From Bugula neritina (lineage: Eukaryota > Bryozoa > Gymnolaemata > Cheilostomatida > Bugulidae), in the NCBI GenBank assembly GCA_964035545.1, contig OZ037770.1, positions 6,250,229 through 6,314,228 on the forward strand: a stretch of DNA of 64,000 bases, written 5' to 3'. The notes beneath the pieces are model-generated. The model searched no databases. It was not told where the DNA came from and saw only the letters and a list, made by a program, of their open reading frames with translations. A program made the translations under genes and the position numbers. Shown piece by piece: positions 3,460 to 11,499 of the stretch; positions within the stretch are counted from its first letter, which is position 1, and each line of letters opens with the position of its first letter.

Positions 3460-4833
3460 TGCCCAACCAAATTGGTTTTTATAAAATATTTGGTTGAATA
3501 CACAAGCAATGTGTACAATATATTATATTATTATGATGCAGTAGACTAGATATATCACACACTTTATATTACAGTCTATGTCAGCTGACTCAGTTAGAGA
3601 CACTAGACATAGGATATAATCCCCTCAACACAGTACCAGAAGTTGTGTCATCACTCACATCACTCAAAGAGTTGCATATGTGGAACTGTGAATTATCTAC
3701 TCTACCTGAGAGGTTTGTGTGTCACAGGTTTTGTATTGTTTCTAGCATTCAATAATTTACATCTTCAAAATAACTTGGTTACAACAAAACTCTTTAAGCT
3801 GATTGTTCTGTATTCAGTTCCTTTTTTTCTGGGTGGCTTTTATAGTGTATGTGAAAGTTTAATGGTTTATTGAAAAATGATTGGAGTTCTAAATTATATT
3901 TAGTAGTTTTGTAAGTGTACTAGTGTCATGGTATGCTTTCCTTGTTTCAAAAACTCAGACATTCTTATATTTATATGCTTAAAAAGTAATATTAAAGTAT
4001 ATTATATTATATATTGCTGCGGTTAAAAATATAAAGTAAATTTTTCAAAGCCATGTAATAGTTTGTTATATCCTTGAGTAACACAGCTGTAAGCTATGGT
4101 ATTATATAGCATTCTATAGTAAACAGTTTTGTATTTAATAATGAAACGACCTCTTGTGGTGTCTTGTAACAGTAAGTGGATTACTTGAATTTTTTACCTG
4201 GTTTGAATACACAAAAAATGTATACAGTGTATATATTATCCTGATACAGTGGATTGCATATATCACACACTTTATATTACAGTCTGTGTCAGCTGACTCA
4301 GTTAGAGAAACTAGTCATAGGATGGAATCCTCTCAAAACTGTACCAGAAGTTTTGTCATCACTCACATCACTTAGAGAGTTGAATATGGGGAGCTGTGAA
4401 TTATCTACTCTGCCTGAGAGGTTTGTGTTTCTCAGACTTTGTATTGTTTAAAAATTCAGTAATTCACATATTTATGTGCATGCTAAATAATTTCAAATAG
4501 TACCCCATTATATATTACTAGGTTAAAATATAAAGGTATATAATCTGAAGTTTTTTTGAAGTTACATGTGTATTATAATCTCTCACATCTTGAAAATAAC
4601 ATAGTTTTAGAATTTGTCATAAAATATATATGAAAACCTTCATAATTTATAATAAAGCAGCCATTTATAGTGTATTAGTATTTATTTACTGTTGAATCCT
4701 CATTAGCTCTCTTGATTTATTAGCTCTGCATTTGAAATTTGCATTGCTGCCTAAACTTTATTCCTTGTTTGAATGCACAAGCAGCATATATATACAGTAT
4801 ATATTATTATAATACAGTAGACTACATTGTGCT
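3460..4833 (+). repeat. Tandem duplication of an LRR exon with flanking intron
   Basis: About 260 bp around 3460-3720 recurs at 4170-4440 with high identity, covering the intron 3' part and an LRR exon. The exon is exactly 138 bp in both copies and symmetric (same entry and exit phase), encoding 46 residues, i.e. two 23-residue LRRs. A third copy of only the intron part is visible at about 4770-4833, without the exon. This is a direct view of LRR array growth by exon duplication. Confidence 0.85.
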
Positions 4834-7800
4834 AGTATTCACTACAAGTCAATGCAAAGGTTTGACAACACTGATTCTCTTTATTGATGACATGAAACAA
4901 GTACCCTGTTGAATAAAACATAAATTTTAATACTCAGGGTCACATGATCTATGATAAACTATAATATAAAAAAGTTGCAGTAACAGAAAGCAGGCACACA
5001 GAGTAATAATATTGTTTTTATGTATTATGTAATGACTATAATAATATTTACTTACAAATTTATTACCCTCTATTATAGTGTTACTAGCATGTAAATTATA
5101 TTATTTAAACCTGCAGGTACAAAAAAGACATATATAAATGAATTATATAATGTAGTCATATTATTACATCAACACTGTATATAAGATAAAATGACAAAAT
5201 CAATTATACCCATCATATTATATGTGGTACAAAACATGGTAACATACAGTTATGTTGAGATATGTCAGACTTTGCCTTTCATTACTAATGGCTAAAGAGT
5301 TGTGGGCTAAGGAACTTGTTGACTATCTGCTGTGTACACTCCTACTGACTGGCTTAGGTTAACAATATATTTTGTGATCAGTTACAGTATATTTGTCAAC
5401 TAATCCAAAGGTCAATTAACCAGTGTATAATGATACATAAATATATCACACAATTAATATGACAGTACCCTCACCTATTGCCTTTATGACTTGCTTGGGT
5501 AGTGGGTGGCTGCCAGAGGCCTACCTTAAATAAACTTTTCTACATAACTCTATCCTGAGGGTCTTCTTCATTGAAAAAACAGAATTGGTTATCTTTCCTG
5601 ATTGCGTCCTGCTGACTATGCTATGAGCATCTCGATTTCTCTTTACTCTAACTCTCATCACATGTACTCTTCTCAGGTCATCTCTCTTCTATATATATAT
5701 GTGTAAATACTGCCTAATTCTCTCGCTGGTTTTGCCATCTTTAAGACTGGTTCTCGCCTACGCTATGCTAAATCTTTCAGCAAGGTAATCGGTCAATGGC
5801 CATGTTTACACTCTATACAGTAGAACTAGTCATATTACTGTCTTGTGTATATATAAGCATCTTTACTTTCTTTCAAACTTAATTGTCAGCTCTCTTCATT
5901 TCTCCTTTATTGTCACATATTACCCCAGTCAGTTCTCTCCATTTATCCTAGGTGTTGCCAATGCGCACCTGTACCTCTACATTCTGCTTCCTGGTGAATT
6001 GTATTCTCCAGGTATTTGAATGTGGTATTTTGAATCAAAGTTGAATGTTCAAGTCTATCATATTCCATTATTTTGATATCATCGCTGCTTTTTCTGGTGA
6101 TAGGTACACAGTTTTATACCTGCTGACTTTTAGGCCGGCATCCTCTAATATCCTTTTCCAGTCTTCCAACACTTATTCTGCGATTTCTCTTCTCCCATCA
6201 CACAACACCAATTTACATACAGTATATATAATATGATGATTGTGGCTTATATCTGCTTGTTTTCTGTAGCTACCATAAGGCTGATTGCTAGATAATTGAA
6301 AGTGTTTCATATGAGCTTACTATAGTCACTATCACACAATACTATTTTGCTTAATTATTGTATACCAACTACCTCTAGTTTATGCTGGTAATAGAAATAT
6401 AATATTTTATTAGGATGCAGAGTCTACAGGAGCTACAGACACTAGACATAAATGGAAATAACTTCTCCAGATTACCATCTTCAGTGTGCAGATTGAGTAA
6501 TCTGCACACACTGGATATATCCAACAACAAATTCATGACAGCCTTGAACCCTGAGATACTACAGCTAACACGTCTTCACAGACTGAATACAGATAGTTGC
6601 AATGCTCTTACATCTCCTCCACTAGAAGTTCGTTGGAGAGGATTAGATGCTGTGCGACAATACTACACAGATTTGGCTAAGGGCACTGGTAGAAACTTGC
6701 CATTTGCTACAATAGCAGTGTTAGGGAACACCATGGCAGGTAAAACCAGTCTGATCAGAACATTACAGAGCACTGACAGGAAGAGAGTTCTGACTAAGAG
6801 AAGTTCGAATGCAGAGTATGATGAGACTACAAAGGTGTTTAATGTGGAAGAGGTGGAGGTGGATGGTACAACTCTTTGTCTCATAGATATGGGAGGCCAG
6901 GAGGTCTACCATATTACATACCATTTGACACTGAGACAAAATTGTGTACCGGTAATTGTAGTCAACATGGAGCAGTATGATCAGATTTCGAAAGCGTCTA
7001 CAGACAGAGAGGCTGTGAGAGAGTTGGCCTTTGACTTCGTCTCTCACCTCTATCTCGCTCATCCATCTCTTGGCCCACCTAAACTTGTCTTCACACACAA
7101 AGATAAGTTTCAAAATGAGAAGTGTCAACAAATAAAAGACGACTTTCTTAGAGTATCTGATGAACTGTGCAAAGAAATTCTTGATGAAGAGAAAGGCTCA
7201 GATGGGGAATTTGTGAAAATTCAGCATTTCAATTCATCGAATGGAAAGGTTTTTGCCAGTGAAGATATATATCAGATCGGAAAGGAAGACGACTATGCTG
7301 AGTACGACTTGATAAAGAGCTCCCTTCTAGAGAGCAGTCAGCATTTTGTTAAGCCTTTGCCTTTGATATGGGAAAAAGTGAATGAAAAAGTTTTGTCTTT
7401 ACCTGGAGCATTTTGCTCCTTTTGGTTTATTCTGCTTGTGTTAAAAAAAGACAGCTTTGAACTGAAGCCAAGCCAGCTAGATACTATTCTCACATACATG
7501 CATGACTGCGGCAAAGTATTGTGGTACAAGAAAATTGATGCACTCAGGCCATACATCTTTCACAAGATTTCTGAAGTAACCAAACTGTTGTGTGTTTTGT
7601 ATCACCATGACCCAAAAATTTGGCAGAGTCGGGTTGATCAGTTCAAATCATATCATTCCATAGAAGGAGTCAGGATTGAAAAGCAAGACTTTGAAAAATC
7701 TGTCAATTGCTTCAAGACTAGTGGCATGATGATGCAACCTCTTCTAACATATTTGATTGCGGACGAAACTTCCTTCAATAGTTCTGGTGATGTTGAAATT

Positions 7801-10800
7801 GCTGTTTCATTGCTCAGAACATTTCGTTTGCTGTATGGTCCTTTGGAAAATGATGCTAAGGTATCATACTACATTGTTCCACAGTTTGCCAAGGAGCTAT
7901 ATTGTACTCCCTACACATCATCGAAAGACCTGTTACTTGTTGCTGAGACACAGTTTAATGGTCTGGCATTACCACAGCATGTCTACCACCAAATGACTGT
8001 GGGTTTGCTAGAACTGTTTCCAGAAGAGTTTGCTGTGAGAAGGGTAAAGAATAATGGCGTTAATGTTTACCAAGATCAAATATACACACAGCTGATACAT
8101 GACTGCAAAGCAAGAAGAGTCTTACTCTATGTGTCATCTGATGCTGCTCACATTTCCAGGATGTGGGAGAAACTCATTTCAACCAACAACAACATCCTCA
8201 GACATGTGATGGAAACTTGGACTGCTAGTCGACCAGTCACTGCCTGCTTCTGTGCTCACTGCGTCACGCTTGGGGTTTCTTGCCCTGAAAAAATAATTCG
8301 TCCTAATTGGTGTTTTCGCTCCTTAAGCAACCCATCACCAGATGTAAAGAAGTGTAGTGGATCTTCAACAACATTGTGTAACAATGAGGAAGTGCCCAGT
8401 GCTTTAATCTACCCATGTATGTTAATTCAGAAATATTTTTACTCATACTTTTTTTTCATAAAACATCAATGCAGTTTTAAATGTTGAAAGTATACAAGGC
8501 CAATTAGAGAAGTTAGTTTAAATTATGCACTCCTAATTCGAGTTCATCAAAACTATACTAAACAACAAACATTGCCTAATAACGTTTACAAATATTTTAA
8601 CAGTTTAAACTATTCATTTAAAACCTGGATTTCTAAAATATATATATATGTCATATCCTTTAGTTGAGTCAATATTAAGATTTGGTAGTAAAACCTATCT
8701 AGTTATAGTTAAAGTGAAGGTTGTGAGGTAATTTATCTAATCAGTTTTATTCAGGTGAGGCGTTGTCAGAAACAGAAATTCAGAAGTTGGAGACGCTGTT
8801 GGTAAAGCTCAAACTACGCAGAATAGAGCAGAAACACTTTACTGGTAAACTTCTACAGTAGTTAATTCTTAGCTTCTTTTTTCTGGATAGAGTTTTGTTT
8901 GAGAAAAAAACAAATGACTTGAAGAAACTGTTTATTAAATTCAAACGACTGCATGAATAGTATAGAAAGTTTGATCATGTAAACTTCTTCGACGAGCTTT
9001 GCAAAGCCATTTCTGACAAAATCTAATGTTTATTTGTATGCAATGAACAAATTTCTTGTGTTTGTCAAATATTGACAATAAAATCTTGTGACTGCAGAGG
9101 TTGATGATCTAAGTGATCTCTCTGATGACGATGAAGTTTTACAGACTGGTGAAGAGAAGGACAAGGATATGAAGTTGATAAAACTCAAGTTAAAGCCAAC
9201 CAGCAACCTAAAGATTAAACAACTCTTTCCAAATACTGTCAAGGTTGTTATATCAGTTAATAACCGTTTTAGCCATGATGGTTTGGCCACTCAATACACT
9301 ATAGTGGTATAATTATTCCTTTATTCCCACAGCTTGATAATAAGAATACCTGAATGTAGAATACGTGCTTTCTTTACAAAGTATAAGTTTTATTGTAATA
9401 TAATTTGATAATTTTGTGCTTTGGAGAAATTGGCTCATAACATTTATTTAGTGAAATTTCATGTCACCACTGTACATGGTATTCTAAACATTCTTGCCTC
9501 CAGGTGTTCAATATGACCAGAAACAGAGGAAAAGCTCTGATCATAAACAACAAGAATTTTGTTGAAAGACCAGACTTATGCAGGGAAGGTTCAGATGCTG
9601 ATGTTGAGAACATGTCTGTCATGTTGAAATCTCTCAAGTTTGATGTTGAGACACACACAGACCTAAAGGCAGAGGTATAATATTTTAGAATGACAGCAAT
9701 AGTAGTGAACTATATACATGGTAGCATGCTATTTCTTTAAAGAAGTAAAAATGCTTTTTGTGTGAAACTGTATTCAAACTTTTAGGGTCAAGCTTTTTCT
9801 TCAGTATTTGCTTAACTTACACACTGTCCTAATATTACTTAAGGTTTGCTAAAATGGGTGCACATTTTGGCATACTTGCTTGTGAGTCAATATTTATAGT
9901 TATCAATAGTCATACTAATAGAAGTGAATGCTCTCATTTACCTGTATGGTTATTATTACTTACACAGCTCAACTTGGCTGACGTATTAGCTTTTCAACTG
10001 AAAATACCTATTACTATTGAAACAAGATTTAGCAACCTCCTAATATTGTCAAGTTGCAGTTATGCTATAAATGGCTGATGGGCCAGGATTATATAAAAAA
10101 AATGCAGCACTTCTTAGAGATATAATAACATTTTATAAAATAAATGTAGGAAATGCTGTCTGCTGTGAAGTCCGAGATAAAAAATGAAAGAAACAACGGC
10201 TTGGGCTGTCACATGCTGGTAGTCATGAGTCACGGTGAAGAAGATAACTGCATCTATGGAACTGACCTTGAGAAGGTCAATCTTACAGACTTGTATGATT
10301 TACTCGCTCCTCTAAGTCTAAAGCGTAAACCTACAGTTGTCATCCTAGAAGCTTGCAGTGGAGGTAATTACAGCGTTTTATAGAAAATGTTCATTTTTAG
10401 TTGAGTTGTGGAAGTAAGACAAAGATCCTTGAAAAGCGCTCTCTGTACTGATTGAATTCCTTTTTTGCTCAAGATGCAAGCCTAAAAAAATTTTTGTTGC
10501 AGCAAACATTGAGGTGAATCCAGACAGATCTGGTCTTGCAGCAGCTCAAGAAGAAGAAACTGAATCTGTCTCTTCTACACATTCTGAATCTGATGATGAT
10601 ATTGTATATCCTGAAACACCCAGTGTAATAAGACCCATCAGACCTGTCTTACCACCAGCACCTAGAATAGAAGAGCGGTGGACCAGACTGGATGTTGATA
10701 ATCTTCTTGTTCTAAAGAGTAGCGTCTGCTGTACGTATACTAAATAGTGATTAGCTAGTTTTACATGTGCACAGTTGCAGTTATTTAGAAAATTGTCTCT

Positions 10801-11499
10801 CCTTAATCCAATCTTGTAAACTTGTCTTTAAAAAGTATATCAAACAAAGACTTTTAAAATATACTGAGCTTGCTTTCATTACACCATAATTTTGGCTGCA
10901 TTTAATTTTATTGTAGCATCAAAGAGACATCCTGAATATGGATCTCCTATGATTAGAGCTCTCGTATCTTCAATCTACAAACATGCCTGTCACCGTGATC
11001 TCTACACCATCTTCATGCAGGTAAGTCTAGAATGATAATTTTGCTGATTTCTGGTTTCATACAAAAATATTTCTTTTATTTCAGCTGTTTATTATTCATA
11101 TTTTTTGATTGACATTTTTCTATCAGCCTGTTGTGAAGGTTTACAGACTGTCTTAGTCTCACTGCAATGATATACCTTATATTTTTAACTGTAGCAGACA
11201 ACTCTCAAGATTTTGCTGCTTAGATTTGATACAAATAAGACGGTATATTCCAGCAGCTTAGAGTTGTAAATATTTATCTCATCTGGAAGTATATTCGTAC
11301 ACAATCTTACTAGTCATTACTTGCTCTACAGGTACAGACTAAACTAGTGAAGAAACTATATGCAGATGAAGATTCAGAGAGAAGCAGAAATTTGGTTGTA
11401 ATCTGGAAGACTCTTCCTCCCCGTAAAAGACTTTACCTGTTTCCTGGCTTTGATGGGTTTGGTGAAGAGGAAAAACCCAGTAGAGAGGATCATTCCTAA
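3575..11499 (+). CDS. LRR-Roc-COR-caspase fusion protein (5' end not found)
   Basis: Ten coding exons join in phase: 3575-3712, 4283-4420, 6414-8416, 8755-8844, 9098-9243, 9504-9674, 10150-10363, 10503-10730, 10917-11020 and 11332-11499 (TAA), giving about 1,130 codons. The first two exons each encode two LRRs, and LRRs continue into exon 3. A Roc GTPase follows: P-loop GNTMAGKTS at 6724, DMGGQE at 6886 and G4 motif THKD at 7093. Next is a COR domain of the MFHAS1-like type, ending near 8416. An acidic linker (exon 9098) leads to a caspase p20: RGKALIINN near 9524, catalytic His in MSHGEE at 10231 and catalytic Cys in EACSGG at 10354. A long inter-subunit exon then precedes a p10 (GSPMIRALV, DLYTIFMQ). 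Likely cytosolic. The prodomain position is occupied by ROCO; no CARD or DED is seen. Upstream LRR exons and the start codon are missing. Splitting into two genes is unlikely, because every junction keeps phase and no stop or new start intervenes. Confidence 0.88.
5537..6215 (-). mobile_element. Decayed LINE reverse-transcriptase fragment
   Basis: Read on the minus strand, roughly 6215 to 5880 gives broken frames resembling the post-catalytic part of a non-LTR reverse transcriptase (fragments such as LEDWKRILEDAGLKVS and VICDNKGEMKR). Weaker carboxy-terminal-like text follows to about 5540. Several stops and frame breaks show it is dead. It lies in the large intron before the Roc exon. The clade cannot be fixed by eye. 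Confidence 0.6.
8661..8696 (+). repeat. 36-bp dispersed repeat, copy A (near-identical copy at 45631-45666)
   Basis: This intronic 36-bp block matches 45631-45666 at 35 of 36 positions, on the same strand. It begins TAGTTG and ends AAAACCT. In both genes the block lies just upstream of an exon. Its origin is unknown; it may be the edge of a transposable element. Confidence 0.8.

Follow-up and report, generated by a model that had tools for sequence, protein, structure and literature searches.

The window analysed here, a stretch of 64,000 nucleotides (nt) that very probably represents bases 6250229-6314228 of chromosome 6 of the bryozoan Bugula neritina, appears to contain a gene in which leucine-rich repeats (LRRs), a Roc GTPase domain and a COR domain are followed, at the C-terminal end, by a metazoan-type caspase. 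The architecture was observed in the DNA, as were the size of the family (about a hundred paralogues in Bugula) and the conservation of the linker between COR and caspase, and the arrangement also occurs in predicted proteins of a second bryozoan, Watersipora subatra. We consider it reasonably probable that these genes constitute a bryozoan class of receptors which unite sensor, switch and protease in one molecule and which work by the mechanism proposed below. Coordinates are positions in the window, with negative numbers for DNA upstream of its start, and all features described lie on the forward strand.

Exons and domains of the window gene

Ten exons between 3575 and 11499, with GT/AG borders and compatible phases, were found to give one open frame when joined, up to a TAA stop at 11497-11499, in agreement with the first-pass annotation, which had read them as LRR-Roc-COR plus caspase in consistent phases; its junctions 8416/8755, 8844/9098 and 9243/9504 were recovered as exon borders. 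Two LRR exons (3575..3712 and 4283..4420) precede a single ROCO exon (6414..8416) that encodes the last LRRs, the Roc GTPase and COR. This is followed by two linker exons, i.e., E4 (8755..8844, phase 1-1 in the window) and E5 (9098..9243), which carries an acidic DLSDLSDDDE motif, and by the caspase exons. The latter comprise a first p20 exon (E6, 9504..9674, assigned by Pfam), a second p20 exon (E7, 10150..10363) with the catalytic His and Cys codons, an exon with the p20-p10 linker and the start of p10 (E8, 10503..10730, from the Pfam span; the equivalent part, 859-924, is disordered in a Watersipora model), an exon with the p10 core (E9, 10917..11020) and a last exon with the end of p10 and the stop codon (E10, 11332..11499).

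While these exons stand, the span of 3575..11499 originally given for the gene does not, as coding appears to begin further upstream, outside the window. Another LRR exon (-295..-158; 86.7% protein identity to the LRR exon at 3575..3712) was joined in frame to the following exons by script, and a more distal exon, with an ATG at -1112 and a donor at -885, resembles the N-terminal end of a protein from Watersipora (25% identity, E 2e-4). Coding thus appears to start approximately 1.1 kb upstream of the window and to comprise 12 exons and about 1,254 amino acids (aa); the phase fit of the ATG exon and both totals come from arithmetic on exon borders rather than from scripted joining. A non-coding first exon may exist as well, as an acceptor-like AG precedes the ATG exon. 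All three LRR exons upstream of the ROCO exon are 138 bp long and of symmetric phase; gain or skipping of such an exon would preserve the reading frame. Rfam and ARAGORN scans of the window gave no matches.

Pfam identified LRRs, Roc (PF08477, 8.4e-7, over the cut-off) and Peptidase_C14 (7.8e-31) in the window protein. Roc carries a G1 motif or P-loop (GNTMAGKT, 6724..6747; the Lys is invariant in our alignment A2), a G3 motif (DMGGQ, 6886..6900; D158 and G160 invariant) and a G4 motif (THKD, 7093..7104; D invariant, T and H nearly so). COR was below the reach of Pfam in the window protein, with weak COR-A/COR-B matches in some Watersipora proteins. An AlphaFold model of the ROCO exon (6414-8416; predicted local distance difference test score, pLDDT, of 87) matches LRRK1, LRRK2 and the C. 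tepidum Roco protein over Roc and COR, and the isolated COR structure 3dpt is also among its PDB matches. The protein thus fits the ROCO family as judged from these motifs and the modelled fold, with COR, recognized by its fold, directly after Roc. Pfam detected no NACHT, NB-ARC or kinase domain in the window protein, and no CARD or DED in the part of the protein encoded in the window.

The caspase shows its best sequence match to the ancestral effector caspase 6pdq (8.4e-20). The catalytic His (10231-10233) and Cys (10354-10356), both previously reported to be in place, are confirmed by sequence and alignment. The S1-pocket Arg pair for Asp at P1 is present in CREGSDAD and SKRH; the codon of the first Arg (9582-9584) aligns with the R of RNGTD in 6pdq, and the second (10925-10927) was assigned by eye from its motif, following caspase-3 numbering.

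Paralogues in Bugula and relatives in Watersipora

A search of the Bugula assembly (215.85 Mb, 295 contigs) with the Roc part yielded 110 matches at 109 loci, as two matches are halves of one locus (L014). Most loci lie in open frames of approximately 650 to 750 aa, and the last two matches were weak (34% and 27% identity). Caspase positions were taken from two genome searches, using the best 150 of 159 and the best 150 of 176 matches. Among the matches listed, a caspase was located downstream on the same strand within 6 kb of at least 99 of the 109 Roc loci, within 10 kb of at least 101 and within 20 kb of at least 104. Caspases upstream on the same strand numbered 0, 2 and 13 within these respective distances (cluster neighbours), and none was listed on the opposite strand at any of them. 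Five of 37 loci left unpaired in an earlier pairing were fetched, caspases being the one effector domain searched for, and all five carry one; L033, one of five loci with no listed caspase match at 20 kb, carries a caspase on inspection. About a hundred paralogues, the window gene among them, make up the family.

For 34 of the caspase places listed, the 20 kb upstream contain no ROCO, and stand-alone caspases thus exist too, e.g., a whole domain in one exon at C4:5000994-5001812 and clusters at C9:9.32-9.41 Mb and C2:30.51-30.55 Mb. At one Roc locus (L036, C1:33885817-33886224) the open frame that holds the ROCO part reaches 2,363 aa, compared to the usual approx. 690, as if most LRR exons had merged. 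Searches of the genome, which intron-split or divergent domains can escape, gave one partial NACHT match, no NB-ARC match, four CARD matches and eleven Death matches; with so few NACHT and NB-ARC matches, ROCO-caspases could fill the place of NLRs.

To assess the joint between COR and caspase, 20 paralogue stretches of 9.9 kb were compared with the window (21 copies in total; beyond the COR exon, splice phases were examined on the window copy). The donor of the COR exon and its phase are the same in all 21 copies. E4 is present in all 21 (13 found by BLAST and 8 by acceptor and motif) and E5 in 20, and E5, E6 and E7 occur in consecutive order in 18 of the 20 paralogues; the caspase of L023 lies beyond its stretch, and L028 shows none within its own. 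Pairwise ratios of nonsynonymous to synonymous substitution rates (dN/dS) were 0.25 for the ROCO exon, 0.48 for E4 (the 13 copies found by BLAST) and 0.36 for E5 (19 copies), so the linker evolves like coding sequence. For E6 to E10, values were 0.29, 0.35, 0.58, 0.21 and 0.71, respectively. All dN/dS values are tree-free averages over all pairs with L014 excluded, given with no significance test and no intron or wrong-frame control.

Watersipora has single predicted proteins of the ROCO-caspase kind, and PF00656 was found in 17 of 32 named hits from this species, many of which carry the NCBI name "MFHAS1 homolog". For one such protein, P0018, the alignment with the window protein extends across 1,059 columns at 29% identity, linker included, and P0018 contains a DSDLSDVEQEG stretch equivalent to the acidic motif of E5. 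In a model of another (P0063; pLDDT 70, predicted template modelling score, pTM, 0.56), Roc-COR and caspase form two folded parts that match LRRK1 and procaspase-1, caspase-9 and CED-3, with low confidence from COR to p20 and from p20 to p10; given these scores, the arrangement of the parts is not reliable. Overall, the sequences of both species make it very likely that LRR, Roc, COR and caspase are encoded by one gene.

In protein searches based on shared 5-residue words (up to 8,000 candidates scored), only Watersipora proteins among the named relatives span most of the query. Other named matches cover LRRs only (plants, Branchiostoma) or, for bacterial LRR-Roc proteins, up to half of the query; matches confined to the caspase region include a Gadus CARD-Death-caspase (2e-9) and a Halocaridina ankyrin-caspase (5.5e-4). 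The assumption in the first-pass annotation of an early-branching animal as host was mistaken, as B. neritina is a bryozoan and hence a bilaterian; Antp-like (Hox-like) homeodomains in the genome, with 92% and 86% identity, agree with this and rule out a sponge or other early-branching host. In the same assembly, a kinase search (1,226 candidates, of which 128 were scored) gave 21 strong matches, 20 of them on small contigs (C29 to C284; e.g., C188:3952-4716, C173:255-1004 and C64:2494-3273). All 20 read through TAA and/or TAG, whereas TGA is never read through, which is the pattern of a ciliate-type code, and they probably belong to a ciliate associate.

We also constructed trees (LG+G4) for Roc-COR (22 rows) and for the caspase (21 rows) from copies in hand, with long branches for L031, L032 and P0065. 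The Roc-COR tree shows a fully supported split with Bugula and Watersipora on both sides, and two subfamilies would therefore be older than the separation of these species; on the window's side, the sole Watersipora row is the long-branched P0065, which the caspase tree places without support. Approximately unbiased (AU) tests on L033, which was chosen after the trees had been inspected, group its Roc-COR with the window's group (P = 7e-51 against the alternative) but place the caspase in the other subfamily (window group disfavoured at P = 0.002), which suggests exchange of the caspase cassette. Synonymous divergence (dS) was uneven along the gene (0.83 and 0.60 for COR; 0.31 to 0.41 for LRR and Roc; 0.17 to 0.36 for E6 to E10), which fits gene conversion over several parts, with the caspase not singled out. 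Within the ROCO exon, dN/dS was 0.59 for the LRRs, 0.24 for Roc and 0.20 for COR, a pattern consistent with a faster-changing LRR sensor atop a constrained Roc-COR switch.

Catalytic state and alternative readings

A number of observations weigh against a family of intact single-chain proteases. PF00656 is missing from 15 of the 32 named Watersipora hits, so that ROCO-only products may exist. Among 11 caspase-less Watersipora proteins examined by eye, nine clearly pass from COR into the linker (P0087 reaching p20), P0091 is doubtful and P0070 does not; these entries may represent shortened models, broken copies or short isoforms. In addition, a Met just before p20 (9513-9515, in VFNMTRNRG), which could serve as an internal start, is present in all but one of the 19 Bugula copies that have this exon (18 of 19; the reading of L025 is shifted there), in the context VFNM or VFSM, and in the Watersipora relatives examined as YKM or YQM. 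The conserved Met and the nine models that end within or after the linker exons would both be expected if one gene yielded the full-length receptor together with short products (ROCO with part of the linker, and caspase from the internal Met), regulation residing in their balance. We regard this as unlikely, if worth serious attention; shortened models may instead reflect misannotation or damaged gene copies.

Loss of catalytic residues points in a different direction. The Cys is kept in 11 of the 19 copies with the second p20 exon, and replaced by Ser in the other eight (L012, L013, L014, L015, L020, L021, L022 and L026), in which other parts of the caspase domain are conserved; as the His is missing from L018, which is among the 11, 10 of the 19 copies, including the window, look catalytically complete by sequence. 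Furthermore, at the position two residues ahead of the Cys, 17 of the 19 copies carry Glu (EACSG in the window) and two carry the usual Gln. Such substitutions would be in keeping with a mostly non-proteolytic scaffold family, in which the caspase fold would serve for dimerisation or substrate binding, with the active copies as relics or few in number. A bacterial system for which approximately 70% of caspase domains in effector position are reported to be inactive offers a precedent (Kaur 2020, PMC7159879). We find such a scaffold family improbable, as His and Cys are both kept in 10 of the 19 copies, dN/dS of the p20 exons is 0.29 and 0.35, and all ten Watersipora proteins examined with a whole caspase keep QACSG or QACGG.

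Some copies are also damaged, i.e., L016 has no p10 exons in its stretch and the ROCO (COR) exon is disrupted in at least two of the 20 paralogues (L014 and L021), and the last exon (0.71) and the p20-p10 linker (0.58) are weakly constrained by dN/dS. It is very improbable that a ROCO gene and a neighbouring caspase gene were duplicated together and then wrongly united, both by eye and in gene predictions: the conserved Met at the start of p20, the Watersipora models that stop after COR or in the linker and a joining predicted here from DNA would suit this, but the COR-end donor is in phase in 21 of 21 copies, the linker exons are kept with dN/dS below 0.5, single Watersipora proteins (some listed as numbered isoforms) are colinear through the linker, and none of the 109 loci has a listed caspase upstream or on the opposite strand within 6 kb.

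Proposed mechanism and relation to known systems

For the single-chain LRR-Roc-COR-caspase receptor that we favour, we infer a series of steps (ligand, nucleotide change, meeting of caspases, self-cleavage, death or defence) that would give it a role in immunity or cell death. The LRRs would keep the protein inactive and bind a ligand, binding would change the nucleotide state of Roc, and this change would rearrange both Roc-COR and the oligomer, bringing two caspase domains into contact. Next, the caspase would cleave itself in the disordered linkers, i.e., at the conserved acidic LSD motif before p20 and in the p20-p10 linker, and, once freed, would elicit cell death or a defence response; Ser-for-Cys copies might act as decoys or dampers. 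By analogy with another ROCO protein, the effect of the nucleotide may be the reverse of the "GTP-dependent dimerisation" proposed in the first-pass annotation: the GTP-bound state of CtRoco is an active monomer (PMC11052575). Complex formation by human MASL1 is modulated by GTP (PMC3995007).

Like metazoan caspases (caspase-3/6/7, caspase-9, CED-3), the protein has p20 and p10, the His and Cys and the S1 Arg pair; unlike these, it carries LRR-Roc-COR at its N-terminal end instead of a CARD, a DED or a short peptide, and has EACSG in the window compared to QACxG. As a rule, animal caspases depend on separate sensors and adaptors to come together. Animal NLRs and inflammasomes combine an LRR sensor, a nucleotide switch and a caspase output, and thus resemble the Bugula protein in layout; the latter differs in having a Roc-COR GTPase instead of NACHT and the caspase in the same chain, which makes an adaptor unnecessary on paper. 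LRRK1/LRRK2 and DAPK1 bear a kinase, not a protease, and the window protein, with no kinase domain by Pfam, is unlike them. No caspase part is known from MFHAS1/MASL1. This animal LRR-ROCO protein shares the LRR-Roc-COR arrangement (PMC3995007). Brown algal ROCO receptors also form an enlarged LRR-ROC-COR family, and separate exons encode their LRRs (PMC11378527); unlike the Bugula proteins they consist of LRR-ROC-COR, and the word "caspase" is absent from the main text of that paper.

A close parallel in arrangement comes from bacterial conflict proteins with LRR, AP-GTPase (Roc) and COR, for which at least 24 C-terminal effectors, including a caspase, have been described (Kaur et al. 2021, PMC8195603). 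The order LRR-Roc-COR-effector, an effector of the caspase superfamily and the presence of several paralogues per genome are common to both. In the bacterial proteins, however, the effector varies among paralogues, while in Bugula, where caspases were the effector searched for, at least 104 of 109 loci have a caspase within 20 kb, and the caspase is of metazoan type in an intron-rich animal gene. The first-pass annotation's remark that it knew of no described ROCO-caspase class holds in part: bacterial LRR-ROCO proteins with caspase effectors have been published (PMC8195603), and for animals no description was recognized in the literature searched by title and abstract opening, mainly outside subscription journals. 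The terms caspase and ROCO are also absent from the main text of the Flustra genome paper (PMC13326412). An animal ROCO-caspase class thus appears to be undescribed, though single proteins are present in public databases under names like "MFHAS1 homolog".

A more far-reaching proposal, which we put forward tentatively, is that NLR inflammasomes have given way in bryozoans to a repertoire of a hundred genes for single-chain LRR-GTPase-caspase receptors, in which LRR exons would diversify the sensor, caspase cassettes would be exchanged among paralogues and dead members would serve as dampers, with possible roles in infection, symbiont control, colony allorecognition or zooid degeneration. If the receptor reading is true, an arrangement of sensor, switch and caspase so far described from bacteria would be at work in an animal. 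A single chain with sensor, GTP switch and caspase would also allow the link between the nucleotide state of Roc-COR and enzyme output, called unresolved for LRRK2 (PMC11052575), to be measured by a simple protease assay. Such a protein would also show that ROCO receptors may take charge of cell death or immunity in an animal with almost no NACHT or NB-ARC matches in its genome.

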